From NCBI RefSeq assembly GCF_009649845.1, contig NZ_WJIE01000003.1:248001-312000 (forward strand): 64,000 nt of DNA, written 5' to 3'. The notes beneath the pieces were generated by a model. The model worked only from the letters and a program-made list of their open reading frames with translations. It did no database searches and was not told the origin of the DNA. The position numbers and the translations under genes were made by a program. Positions 24,240-31,208 of this stretch are shown here, piece after piece; position 1 is the first letter of the stretch, and each line of letters begins with the position of its first letter. The stretch is from Polyangium spumosum (GTDB taxonomy: Bacteria > Myxococcota_A > Polyangia > Polyangiales > Polyangiaceae).

Positions 24240-26549
24240 ATGCAACCGTTCACGCTGCCGGACTTCTACATGCCGTATCCGGCGCGCATCAACCCTCACC
24301 TCGAGGGCGCGCGCGCGCATTCCAAGGCATGGGCCTACGAGATGGGGGTCCTCGAGAAGAACCCGCAGGGCACCCCCATCTGGGACGAGCGCACCTTCGA
24401 CGCGCACGATTACGCGCTCCTCTGCGCGTATACCCACCCCGACGCCCCCGCGTCCGAGCTCGATCTCATCACGGATTGGTACGTCTGGGTCTTCTTCTTC
24501 GACGACCATTTCCTCGAGCTCTACAAGCGCACGAAGGACATGTCCGGCGCGAAGGCGTACCTCGACCGGCTGCCGCTCTTCATGCCCGTCGTGCCCTCGG
24601 GCGCGCCGCCCACCCCCACGAACACGGTCGAGCGCGCGCTCGCCGATCTCTGGGCGCGCACGGTCCCGCTCACCTCGGTGGCGTGGCGCGAGCGTTTCCT
24701 CGAAGCCACGAAGAACCTGCTCCTCGAGTGCATGTGGGAGCTCGCGAATATCCAGGAGAACCGGGTCGCGAACCCCGTCGAATACATCGAAATGCGCCGC
24801 AAGGTCGGCGGCGCCCCCTGGTCCGCGGGCCTCGTCGAGATCGCCGTGGGCGCCGAGGTCCCGGCCGCCGTCGCCGCGACGCGCCCCCTCGAGGTCCTGC
24901 GCGACACGTTCTCGGACGGCGTGCACCTGCGCAACGACCTGTTCTCGTACCAGCGCGAGGTGGAGGAGGAAGGGGAGAACGCCAATTGCGTGCTCGTCCT
25001 CGAGCGTTTCCTCGGCGTCCCCCCGCAGAAGGCCGCCGACCTGACGAACGAGATCCTGACCTCGCGGCTGCAGCAGTTCGAGAACACGGCGCTCGTCGAG
25101 GTCCCGGCGCTGTGCGCCGAATACGGGCTCACCCCGGAGCAATGCCTCGACGTCGCGAAATACGTCAAGGGCCTCCAGGACTGGCAGTCCGGCGGCCACG
25201 AGTGGCACATGCGGTCGAGCCGCTACATGAACGAGGGCGCGGACAAGTCCGGCGATACCCTCGATTTCCTCGGCCCGAGGGGGCTCGGGACCTCGGCGTT
25301 TCGAATCAAGCTCTCGCCCGGCGCCCTGGGATTGCAGCGCATCAAGACCTTGACGCACGCCCCGTTCCAGCCCGTGGGCCGGATGAAGCGGCCGCAGATC
25401 TACATGCCCTTCGCGCTTCGATTGAGCCCGCATCTGCCCGCGGCGCGCAGGAACTGCGTCGCGTGGGCCCGCAAGATGGGGATGCTCGAGGTGGTGCCGG
25501 GCGTCTTCGGCTCCGGGATCTGGAACGAGCGCAGGCTCATCGGCTTTGATTTCCCCGCCTGCGCCGCGGGCATTCACCCGGACGCGTCCCCGCACGAGCT
25601 CGATCTGAGCTCGGGCTGGCTGACCTGGGGGACGTACGGCGACGACTATTTCCCCCTCGTCTTCGGCGCGACCCGGGACATGGCGGGCGCAAAACGCTTC
25701 AATGCCCGTCTGTCGATGTTCATGCCGCTCGACCTCGCCGGCGCCCCCGTGCCCGAGAACCCCGTGGAGAGCGGCCTGCTCGACCTCTGGATCCGCACGG
25801 CGTCGCCCATGTCGATGAGCGCGCGTCAGACGCTCCGGCGCAGCATCGAGACGATGACCGGGAGCTGGCTCTGGGAGCTCTTGAACCAGACGCAGAACCG
25901 GATCCCGGATCCGGTCGATTACGTCGAGATGCGCCGCAAGACGTTCGGCGCCGATCTCACGATGGGCCTGTCGAAGCTCACGCTCGGCGACGTGATCCCG
26001 GCCGAGGTCTTCCGCACGCGGACGATGCGGGGGCTCGACAACACCACGGCCGACGTCGGCGGCTGGATCAACGACCTCTTCTCGTACCGCAAGGAGATCG
26101 AGTTCGAGGGCGAGCTCTCGAACCTCGTGCTTGTCGTGCAGCGCTTCCTCGAATGCGACGCGGATCGGGCCATGCACGTCGTCAATGACCTCCTGACGGC
26201 GCGCGTGCAGGAGTTCGAGCACATCGTCGCGACCGAGCTGCCCGCGCTCCTCTCGGAGTTCGGCCTGGAAAAGGAGGCTCGGGATGCGCTGCTCGGGTAC
26301 GTCGAGAAGCAACGATTGTACATGGCGGGCGTGCTCAACTGGCACGTGGTGACCAGCCGTTACGTGGACGCCGAGCTCGAGCGCCACCCGATCGAGCGGG
26401 TGCTCGAGGGCGCGCGTGGTTTTGGCACCACGGCGGCGCGTATCGCCACGATGTTCGGCACCGGAAAGGCCGGTGCGCAGGTTCCCGCCGTGAAGGCGGA
26501 TCTTTCGATGGGTACGGCGCGCGTCGCGCCCTTGAAGCTCGGGCGGTGA
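24240..26549 (+). CDS. geoA: Geosmin synthase (bifunctional germacradienol/geosmin synthase)
   Basis: Converts farnesyl diphosphate to germacradienol in the N-terminal domain, then to the earthy odorant geosmin in the C-terminal domain. The 769-residue protein has two class I terpene-synthase domains. Domain 1 (about 1-350) carries DDHFLE (88-93) and the Mg2+-binding [13 protein letters not shown] (232-244). Domain 2 (about 383-735) carries the weaker DDYFP (468-472) and [13 protein letters not shown] (611-623). This two-domain layout and the DDHFLE signature are specific to geosmin synthases. There is no N-terminal extension. A Gly/Ala/Val/Pro-rich tail of about 30 residues (from 740) is likely disordered and, with the interdomain linker (about 360-385), is a candidate encapsulin-targeting segment. 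A shell gene follows after 24 bp. Confidence 0.96.
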
Positions 26550-26573
26550 CCGCCGTCCGCGGAAGAGGAATTC

Positions 26574-29482: not shown

Positions 29483-29513
29483 CAGGCTGCCGGAGAACGA
29501 GGCGAGCGCCACG

Positions 29514-31208
29514 ATGACATTGCCCCACCTCGACCTGCTGCTCCACAATGTCGTCGCCTTGTGCGTCGCGATCGTGGCGCTCTTCCTCCTCTCGGAGCTC
29601 GTGGTCACGATCATCCATCGGGGCTACGCCTTCGTCCTTCGCTCACCGACGCTCGAGCACGTCACGGACGACGACCGCAAGGATTTCCGGCGCCGCGTCC
29701 GCCGCCGCGCCCTCGTATGGGTGTCGATCTTCGTGCTCCTCCTCATGGGCGGCGCGCTCTTCGCGACCCTTCGAGAGGTCCGGATCCTCGACCTCGTGAA
29801 GCGCGCGCTCGGCGAGCTCGCGGGGGACGATCCTTCGGTTCTCAAGGCGCGCCTCGCCGCCACCCTCGGCATTGCCGTCGGGGCGCTTTTCGTCGACACC
29901 CTGGCCCGGGGGCTCGCCGGGACACTGGGCCGGGCCGTCGAGCGCTCGGAGTGGCTCGAGAGCCGCCGCGAGGCCCTCTCCGAGGTCACGATACGCCTGC
30001 GCAAGGCGCTGCGCGCCATCGTCCTCGGCGCCGCCGCGGTCCTCATCGCCGACAAACTCGAGCTCGCGCCGGGATCCCAGCGCTCCGCGTTGCTCGCCGC
30101 CTACGTCCTCGGGGCCTTCTACGTCAGCCGCCTCTTGACGGGCGTCGGATACCTCCTCCTCGACATCCTCTTCGACAACTCGACGCGGCTCACCCGCCTC
30201 GAGAGCCCGCTCAAATATCTCGGCGGTCTGAAGCACCTCCTCGGGATCACCAAGCGCGTCCTCGATTATTGCGTGTACCTCTCGGCCGCGACGTGGGTCG
30301 CAGAGGCGCTGACGCCCGACACGTGGCTGGCGCAGGCCGGGCGGATCGGGATCCGCGTCATCGCGATCTTTTATGCGAGCCGGGTCCTGGTCGAGCTCTG
30401 CGTGCTGCTCATCCACGACCTGTTCCTCGGCAAGACGGCCGAGGGCAATCCCCAGTCGCTCCAGCAGCGCAAGACCCTCGTCCCCGTGGCGATGGGCTTC
30501 TTGCGGTACGCGATTTACTTCACCGCCCTCGTGATGGTGCTGCGCGAGGTCTCCATCGATCCGACGCCGCTGCTCGCCGGCGCCGGCGTCATCGGCGTCG
30601 CCATCGGATTCGGCGCGCAGACGTTCGTGGGCGACATCGTGGCCGGCTTCTTCATTCTCTTCGAGAACCTCCTGCTCGTCGGTGATCTCGTGGAGATCGG
30701 CGGCATCCAGGGGCGCGTGGAGGAGATCGGCGTTCGTATCACGAAGATCCGCGACGAGTCGGGGGTCCTCCACTCCATCCCCAATGGCGAGGTGCGCAAG
30801 GTCGCGAACCACTCGAGGACCTACGTCAACGCGGTGATCGACGTGCACGTGCCCTACGAGGAGGACATGCCGCGGGTGCGTGATCTCCTCGGCAGCGTGG
30901 TCGAGCGCGAGGTCGAGGCGCTGACCGGCGCCCCTGGGCGCGTGGAGGTCGGCGTCGAGGAGCTGACCGAGGGTTCGGTCGTCCTGCGTGTCATCGCGCG
31001 CGTGCCGCCCGGCGAGAGCAAAGACATGGGCGACGCCCTGCGCGGGCGCATCGTGGAGGAGCTCTGCAAAGCCCAGGTGAGCGCGCCGCGCCCGCGTCGC
31101 GCCGTCCTGATCGAGAGCAAGCTCCACGTCGGCCGCCCGCCGCGGCTCGAAATCGAGGAGTCCACGCCCGTCGCGCCCTTCTCGCCTTCGAATGGGGACG
31201 GCGATTGA
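29514..31208 (+). CDS. MscS-family mechanosensitive channel (long form)
   Basis: An inner-membrane channel of 564 residues that would release small solutes on membrane tension. Several hydrophobic segments (first at about residues 8-27, others between 70 and 330) precede the MscS core. The pore helix GVIGVAIGFGAQTFVGDIVAGF and the following FENLLLVGDLVEIGGIQGRVEEIG beta domain are characteristic. The C-terminal cytosolic part (VDVHVPYEEDM, PGRVEVGVEELTEGSVVLRV) matches the vestibule. It is longer than E. coli MscS because of extra N-terminal helices. The ATG at 29514 follows GGAGAACGAGG. Its 31-bp distance from the second shell gene implies cotranscription with the geosmin-encapsulin genes. 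It converges on the NFACT-R gene with a 3-bp gap. Confidence 0.9.
   Translation: MTLPHLDLLLHNVVALCVAIVALFLLSELVVTIIHRGYAFVLRSPTLEHVTDDDRKDFRRRVRRRALVWVSIFVLLLMGGALFATLREVRILDLVKRALGELAGDDPSVLKARLAATLGIAVGALFVDTLARGLAGTLGRAVERSEWLESRREALSEVTIRLRKALRAIVLGAAAVLIADKLELAPGSQRSALLAAYVLGAFYVSRLLTGVGYLLLDILFDNSTRLTRLESPLKYLGGLKHLLGITKRVLDYCVYLSAATWVAEALTPDTWLAQAGRIGIRVIAIFYASRVLVELCVLLIHDLFLGKTAEGNPQSLQQRKTLVPVAMGFLRYAIYFTALVMVLREVSIDPTPLLAGAGVIGVAIGFGAQTFVGDIVAGFFILFENLLLVGDLVEIGGIQGRVEEIGVRITKIRDESGVLHSIPNGEVRKVANHSRTYVNAVIDVHVPYEEDMPRVRDLLGSVVEREVEALTGAPGRVEVGVEELTEGSVVLRVIARVPPGESKDMGDALRGRIVEELCKAQVSAPRPRRAVLIESKLHVGRPPRLEIEESTPVAPFSPSNGDGD

Follow-up and report, generated by a model that had tools for sequence, protein, structure and literature searches.

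Terpene cyclases of Family 2 encapsulin systems were divided in 2021 into a 2-methylisoborneol synthase-like (2-MIBS-like) group and a geosmin synthase-like (GS-like) group, with 114 proteobacterial and 64 cyanobacterial terpene cyclase operons, and GPTGLGTSAAR was proposed as their targeting sequence (PMC8346489). A year before, geoA followed by two cnb genes had been described, with the synteny kept in Cyanobacteria and Deltaproteobacteria (PMC7251104). In 2025, two-component shells were reported, with terpene cyclase operons as the main type in Proteobacteria and Cyanobacteria; the Enc1 and Enc2 types of these shells are separated by motif 1 (TVWK versus RRRK), and the cNMP-like domain of Family 2B does not bind cyclic nucleotides (PMC12407261). 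In the same year, a study of Myxococcota that included Polyangium found encapsulins to be a consistent presence in every geosmin cluster (PMC12766979). Thus, the association of a geosmin synthase with Family 2B encapsulins has already been published in outline across these four studies, and the locus described here adds one member to a system known from Myxococcota.

We analyzed a window of 64,000 nucleotides of Polyangium spumosum DNA, in which geoA, two shell genes (Enc1 and Enc2), and an MscS-type channel gene follow one another in the same orientation (+ strand), separated by gaps of 24, 98, and 31 bp (Table 1). The initial annotation had described these four open reading frames and their spacing, a complete two-domain geosmin synthase, and an MscS channel gene after the shells, all of which we confirmed. 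The matches were not due to chance, with E-values of 1e-225 or lower, and the arrangement recurs across many genomes. In a blastn comparison of the window with seven related loci, homology started at positions 24141 to 24157 and ended at positions 31186 to 31211 in six of the seven; in the remaining locus, from Sorangium cellulosum So0008-312, it stopped at position 29657 inside the channel gene, leaving a small remnant. The genes flanking the four-gene block were not kept as neighbours in the related loci. DNA conservation thus spans the four genes and stops there while the flanks turn over, which means that the MscS-type channel gene is a member of the conserved four-gene unit.

Several features lie near this unit or in its relatives. 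In S. cellulosum So0008-312 (L060, 5847-7275), Enc2 is apparently frameshifted and the MscS gene is mostly missing, for which an assembly error or decay is possible. About 2 kb from the MscS gene of the window, an ORF resembling MscL, the large-conductance mechanosensitive channel, was noted by eye at 33124-33768 on the minus strand. Upstream of geoA, at 22380-23780 (+), lies a gene for an FHA and sigma-54 activator (NtrC-like), and related genes occur near geoA in three other loci (L049, L060, and L081). We rejected this activator as an operon member, since the Polyangium loci do not keep it beside geoA and a search for a sigma-54 site gave nothing convincing.

Table 1. Features of the geosmin synthase-encapsulin-channel locus (positions in the window)
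Feature	Positions	Strand	Evidence and remarks
Conserved DNA block, about 86% identical to Polyangium and close relatives	24141..31211		blastn; ends at the MscS stop codon
geoA, bifunctional germacradienol/geosmin synthase, 769 aa, two terpene synthase domains	24240..26549	+	PF19086 (twice), NF041168
Putative cargo-targeting motif, 11 residues, GeoA interdomain linker, residues 345-355	25272..25304	+	Fits consensus GPTGLGTSAAR (PMC8346489); putative function
Second, diverged motif copy, 11 residues, near GeoA C terminus, residues 724-734	26409..26441	+	Putative function
Enc1-type Family 2B encapsulin shell protein, 469 aa	26574..27983	+	PF19307 and PF00027, NF041163, 9bje, TVWR
Enc2-type Family 2B encapsulin shell protein, 466 aa	28082..29482	+	PF19307 and PF00027, NF041163, 9bix, RRRK
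MscS-type channel, 564 aa, extended N-terminal helices before MscS core, fourth block member	29514..31208	+	PF00924 and PF21088; 3t9n, 9go3/7a46 (YbiO)

In an NCBIfam profile search, GeoA scored 1218.6 bits (cut-off, 1200) against NF041168 (f2_encap_cargo3), a model named "family 2 encapsulin nanocompartment cargo protein terpene cyclase." A PDB search matched its N-terminal domain to the germacradienol/geosmin synthase entries 5dw7 and 5dz2 at an E-value of about 1e-151. Besides the two terpene synthase domains, GeoA has the metal-binding motifs DDHFLE (residue 88), NDLFSYQRE (residue 232), DDYFP (residue 468), and NDLFSYRKE (residue 611), a combination that characterizes GS-like Family 2 terpene cyclase cargo. 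It is the sole geosmin synthase of the 10.76-Mb genome, in which a weaker third terpene synthase match lies on contig 8. The genus also holds Polyangium fumosum and Polyangium sp. y55x31, with GeoA identities of 88% and 86%, respectively.

Both shell proteins are full length, covering positions 1 to 450 of the 450 positions of the profile NF041163 (encap_f2b), with NCBIfam scores of 779 bits for Enc1 and 750 bits for Enc2 (cut-off, 400). The SrpI-like HK97-type shell domain (PF19307) characteristic of Family 2B was detected at 3.9e-140 and 3.4e-135, respectively, and the cNMP-binding-like domain (PF00027) lies internally at residues 113 to 200 in Enc1 and 114 to 201 in Enc2, in accordance with the HK97-like flanks around a cNMP-like insertion that the initial annotation had recognized. 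The closest solved structures, matched over the full length, were 9bje (Sl-Enc1; E-value, 7.2e-195) for Enc1 and 9bix (Sl-Enc2; E-value, 1.3e-185) for Enc2. In the alignment, diagnostic motif 1 reads TVWR in Enc1 and RRRK in Enc2, with a one-residue gap, and adjacent Enc1 and Enc2 genes with this motif place the pair among the two-component Family 2B systems as defined in PMC12407261. The two proteins share 64.7% identity (69% over the C-terminal shell part, against 58% over the cNMP-like domain), and they are encoded by the only PF19307 genes of the whole genome. The AlphaFold2 monomer model of Enc1 was poor (pLDDT, 56.6), so that the HK97 fold is supported mainly by sequence homology to solved shells; a Foldseek search with this poor model gave the S. 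griseus 2B shell 9bhu as the top match (E-value, 1.2e-36), and the best matches were 2B and 2A shells.

We consider it highly probable that the locus is a Family 2B encapsulin operon with GeoA as the cargo of a probable mixed Enc1/Enc2 shell and with the channel in the same conserved unit. GeoA would convert farnesyl diphosphate via germacradienol to geosmin. Enc1 and Enc2 are predicted to self-assemble icosahedrally, most likely together in one mixed shell, and the GPTGLGTSAAR-like stretches in the linker and C terminus would draw GeoA inside. The cNMP-like domains would lie on the outer face of the shell and probably respond to a signal that is not a cyclic nucleotide. The MscS-type channel encoded downstream probably acts on the membrane side, for example, in response to bilayer stress from the lipophilic product. 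For a cyanobacterium, mtf-mtc was reported to suffice for 2-MIB production in E. coli when the cnb genes were left out, and these genes were transcribed separately (PMC10580876), indicating that the shells are not needed for catalysis.

The channel model (pLDDT, 69.9) predicts an MscS core, closest to 3t9n and YbiO, that is preceded by several N-terminal helices, and the MscS beta-domain and pore helices were recognized by PF00924 and PF21088 as well as by Foldseek and phmmer matches to the same two proteins. Close homologues (54 to 80% identity; E-values of 1e-165 or lower) occur in 11 genomes of the family, including the window's own, and all 11 have a geosmin synthase and 2B shells. The channel gene is directly downstream of Enc2 in eight of them and unlinked in three Sorangium genomes. 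In the class sample (192 genomes), 12 of the 13 genomes with 2B shells have an MscS-type gene at most about 1.3 kb away from a shell gene; in the other genome (G399), the contig ends just after Enc2. Chance linkage of the MscS gene was rejected: a single-copy gene would be expected there by chance at about 0.001 per genome, with the caveat that the genomes are not independent of one another. Nannocystis has a second 2B pair without a channel, which lies in a 2-MIB locus where typed.

Based on this linkage, we suggest tentatively, and at somewhat less than an even chance, that in the class of Polyangium and Nannocystis a dedicated MscS-type channel is a functional partner of terpene-making 2B encapsulins, such that the nanocompartment would work together with the membrane, through relief or sensing of stress from the volatile product or through anchoring of the shell. 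Growth inhibition was reported for E. coli producing 2-MIB (PMC10580876), implying that such products burden cells. Descent without function is a serious rival, to which we assign a sizeable minority chance: the MscS gene may be a bystander that stays beside the shells through common descent only. In the MscS-core tree, a single clade (support, 100/100) on a long branch unites 18 linked genes with four that are unlinked but come from shell-bearing genomes, together with one gene of G411, a genome in which no shells were detected. This last member favours mere descent, as does the fact that the clade broadly mirrors the host groups. Nevertheless, the clade adjoins 2B shells in Polyangium, Nannocystales, and a third family, and this linkage is kept while other neighbours turn over, despite arrangements that differ: the channel gene is downstream in Polyangium, Paraliomyxa, and G454, divergent upstream in Nannocystis, and behind a prenyl synthase in G265. 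In 7 of the 15 family genomes with geosmin synthase and shells, the channel gene is missing, broken, or not linked to the shells, as the bystander explanation would have it; no close homologue was detected in four of the 15 (G286, G362, G364, and G365). That explanation fits less well with two further genomes, namely G448, where the channel is at a 2-MIB locus in place of a geosmin locus, and G436, where a linked channel from outside the main clade occupies the same place. A terminal fragment of the channel gene in G366, which has no detected shells, is a second exception besides G411.

A functional partnership, if true, would mean that Family 2B encapsulins are not purely cytosolic devices, and the persistence of a channel gene beside the shells across distant lineages offers a handle on product exit or membrane protection. 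The texts of the papers searched showed no relevant link between encapsulins and mechanosensitive channels, and earlier notice is possible. The MscS association with 2B shells may be an undescribed part of the system, which the initial annotation, though it named the channel gene, did not recognize.

The second alternative concerns the cargo. The shells may assemble with another protein as the main cargo, with GeoA as a mere neighbour or staying outside, which we regard as improbable. Of the 108 family genomes, 15 encode full-length geosmin synthase, and 2B shells occur in all of these and in none of the rest; this perfect co-occurrence, in counts that are inflated by relatedness, speaks for GeoA; at the genus level within the family (5 of 48), the Fisher p value is 6e-7. 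The remaining family genomes had no shells, or only 2A-type shells or fragments. In the phylum sample (284 genomes), full-length geosmin synthase was present in two genomes, the same two that have 2B shells of this type, and in the class sample all 12 genomes with geosmin synthase have 2B shells; the 13th genome with 2B shells (G448) has a 2-MIB locus. Furthermore, there is no other cargo-like gene in the four-gene unit, and GeoA has its motif in common with 2-MIB-synthase-like cargo (PMC8346489).

A different main cargo is favoured by Sorangium (G345 to G347) and G265, where the geosmin synthase gene is unlinked from the shell genes. In all three Sorangium loci (L140, L141, and L142), the 2B pair lies near a divergent 2A-type shell gene that is followed by a cysteine-desulfurase-like gene, and no terpene cyclase gene was found beside the pair. 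Even there, isoprenoid genes accompany the unlinked shells: two of the three Sorangium genomes have an HMG-CoA reductase gene adjoining the 2B pair (Pfam and NCBIfam confirmed one of these genes), and the G265 locus (L059, 4111-10273, minus strand) comprises Enc1, Enc2, a prenyl synthase, and an MscS protein with a C-terminal EF-hand region, with the geosmin synthase on another contig. In addition, all 26 other genomes without a shell in the examined geosmin synthase flanks have a 2B-type shell elsewhere. Because genomes with unlinked geosmin synthase still carry a 2B-type shell, loading in trans is possible, and neighbourhood alone does not define the cargo. Locus L097, from a record titled Comamonas sp. 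KCTC 72670, has adjoining geosmin synthase and shell genes of myxobacterial type, and the label may be wrong. In G363, a genome without full-length geosmin synthase and 2B shells, a 30-residue shell-like remnant (L143, 8607-8696) is a possible trace of loss.

The putative targeting motif bears on the same question. In GeoA, the linker contains a GPTGLGTSAAR-like stretch, and a diverged copy lies near the C terminus; at least one copy is present in nearly all geosmin synthases, with or without an adjoining shell. Many Streptomyces have a weaker linker copy, a pattern that tracks phylogeny. A motif restricted to shell-adjoining geosmin synthases was rejected, given that genes without a neighbouring shell also carry such stretches, a point that lends some weight to a different cargo. 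The motif is also kept in a second geosmin synthase (about 60%) without nearby shells in two Polyangium genomes (L052 and L053). Hyalangium versicolor (L096) likewise has a second geosmin synthase gene without shells nearby, with the motif kept. Thus, the motif does not discriminate, and because every searched genome with unlinked geosmin synthase has a 2B-type shell, the motif test cannot separate cargo from noncargo enzymes. Its presence in GeoA is consistent with cargo status and is no proof of it.

GeoA as the likely cargo of a 2B operon, as the initial annotation had proposed, is supported by curated families, homology to solved shells, Enc1/Enc2 typing, the putative motifs, and co-occurrence in the family, whereas its proposed news value as a terpene nanocompartment outside actinobacteria is not supported, given the publications of 2020, 2021, and 2025. 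The geoA-2B-2B synteny that it suggested looking for across myxobacteria recurs in many genomes, though it is not universal, as Sorangium and G265 show.

Finally, we rejected as very improbable the reading of the two downstream genes as Crp/Fnr-type regulators of geosmin synthesis: PF00027 is present in both proteins, many genomes annotate such genes as regulators, and PMC7251104 terms them cyclic nucleotide-binding genes of the Crp/Fnr type, but no DNA-binding domain was found in either shell protein, the SrpI-like shell domain makes up about half of each (1e-135 or lower), and solved shells are full-length homologues of both.

Compared with known systems, the locus resembles the GS-like 2B operons of PMC8346489 in its two-domain geosmin synthase, the cNMP-like insertion in its 2B shells, and its GPTGLGTSAAR-like motifs; it differs in having two shells and a downstream MscS gene, whereas the main text of that study names no mechanosensitive channel. 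It shares the three-gene order of the geoA-cnb-cnb cluster in the available part of PMC7251104, where cnb is read as Crp/Fnr type and a channel is not reported. With the two-component 2B shell of Streptomyces lydicus (9bje/9bix; PMC12407261), it has in common the Enc1 and Enc2 types distinguished by TVW(K/R) and RRRK, although that operon contains a xylulose kinase in place of a geosmin synthase. The channel shares the MscS core, at residues of about 245 to 535, with MscS/YbiO (3t9n, 9go3, and 7a46), but its identity to them is moderate (about 30 to 34% in Foldseek alignments) and, unlike them, it is linked with encapsulins. The geosmin cluster of Myxococcota (PMC12766979) comes from the same phylum, includes Polyangium, and consistently contains encapsulins; the mechanosensitive channel, unmentioned in that text, is present in the window.
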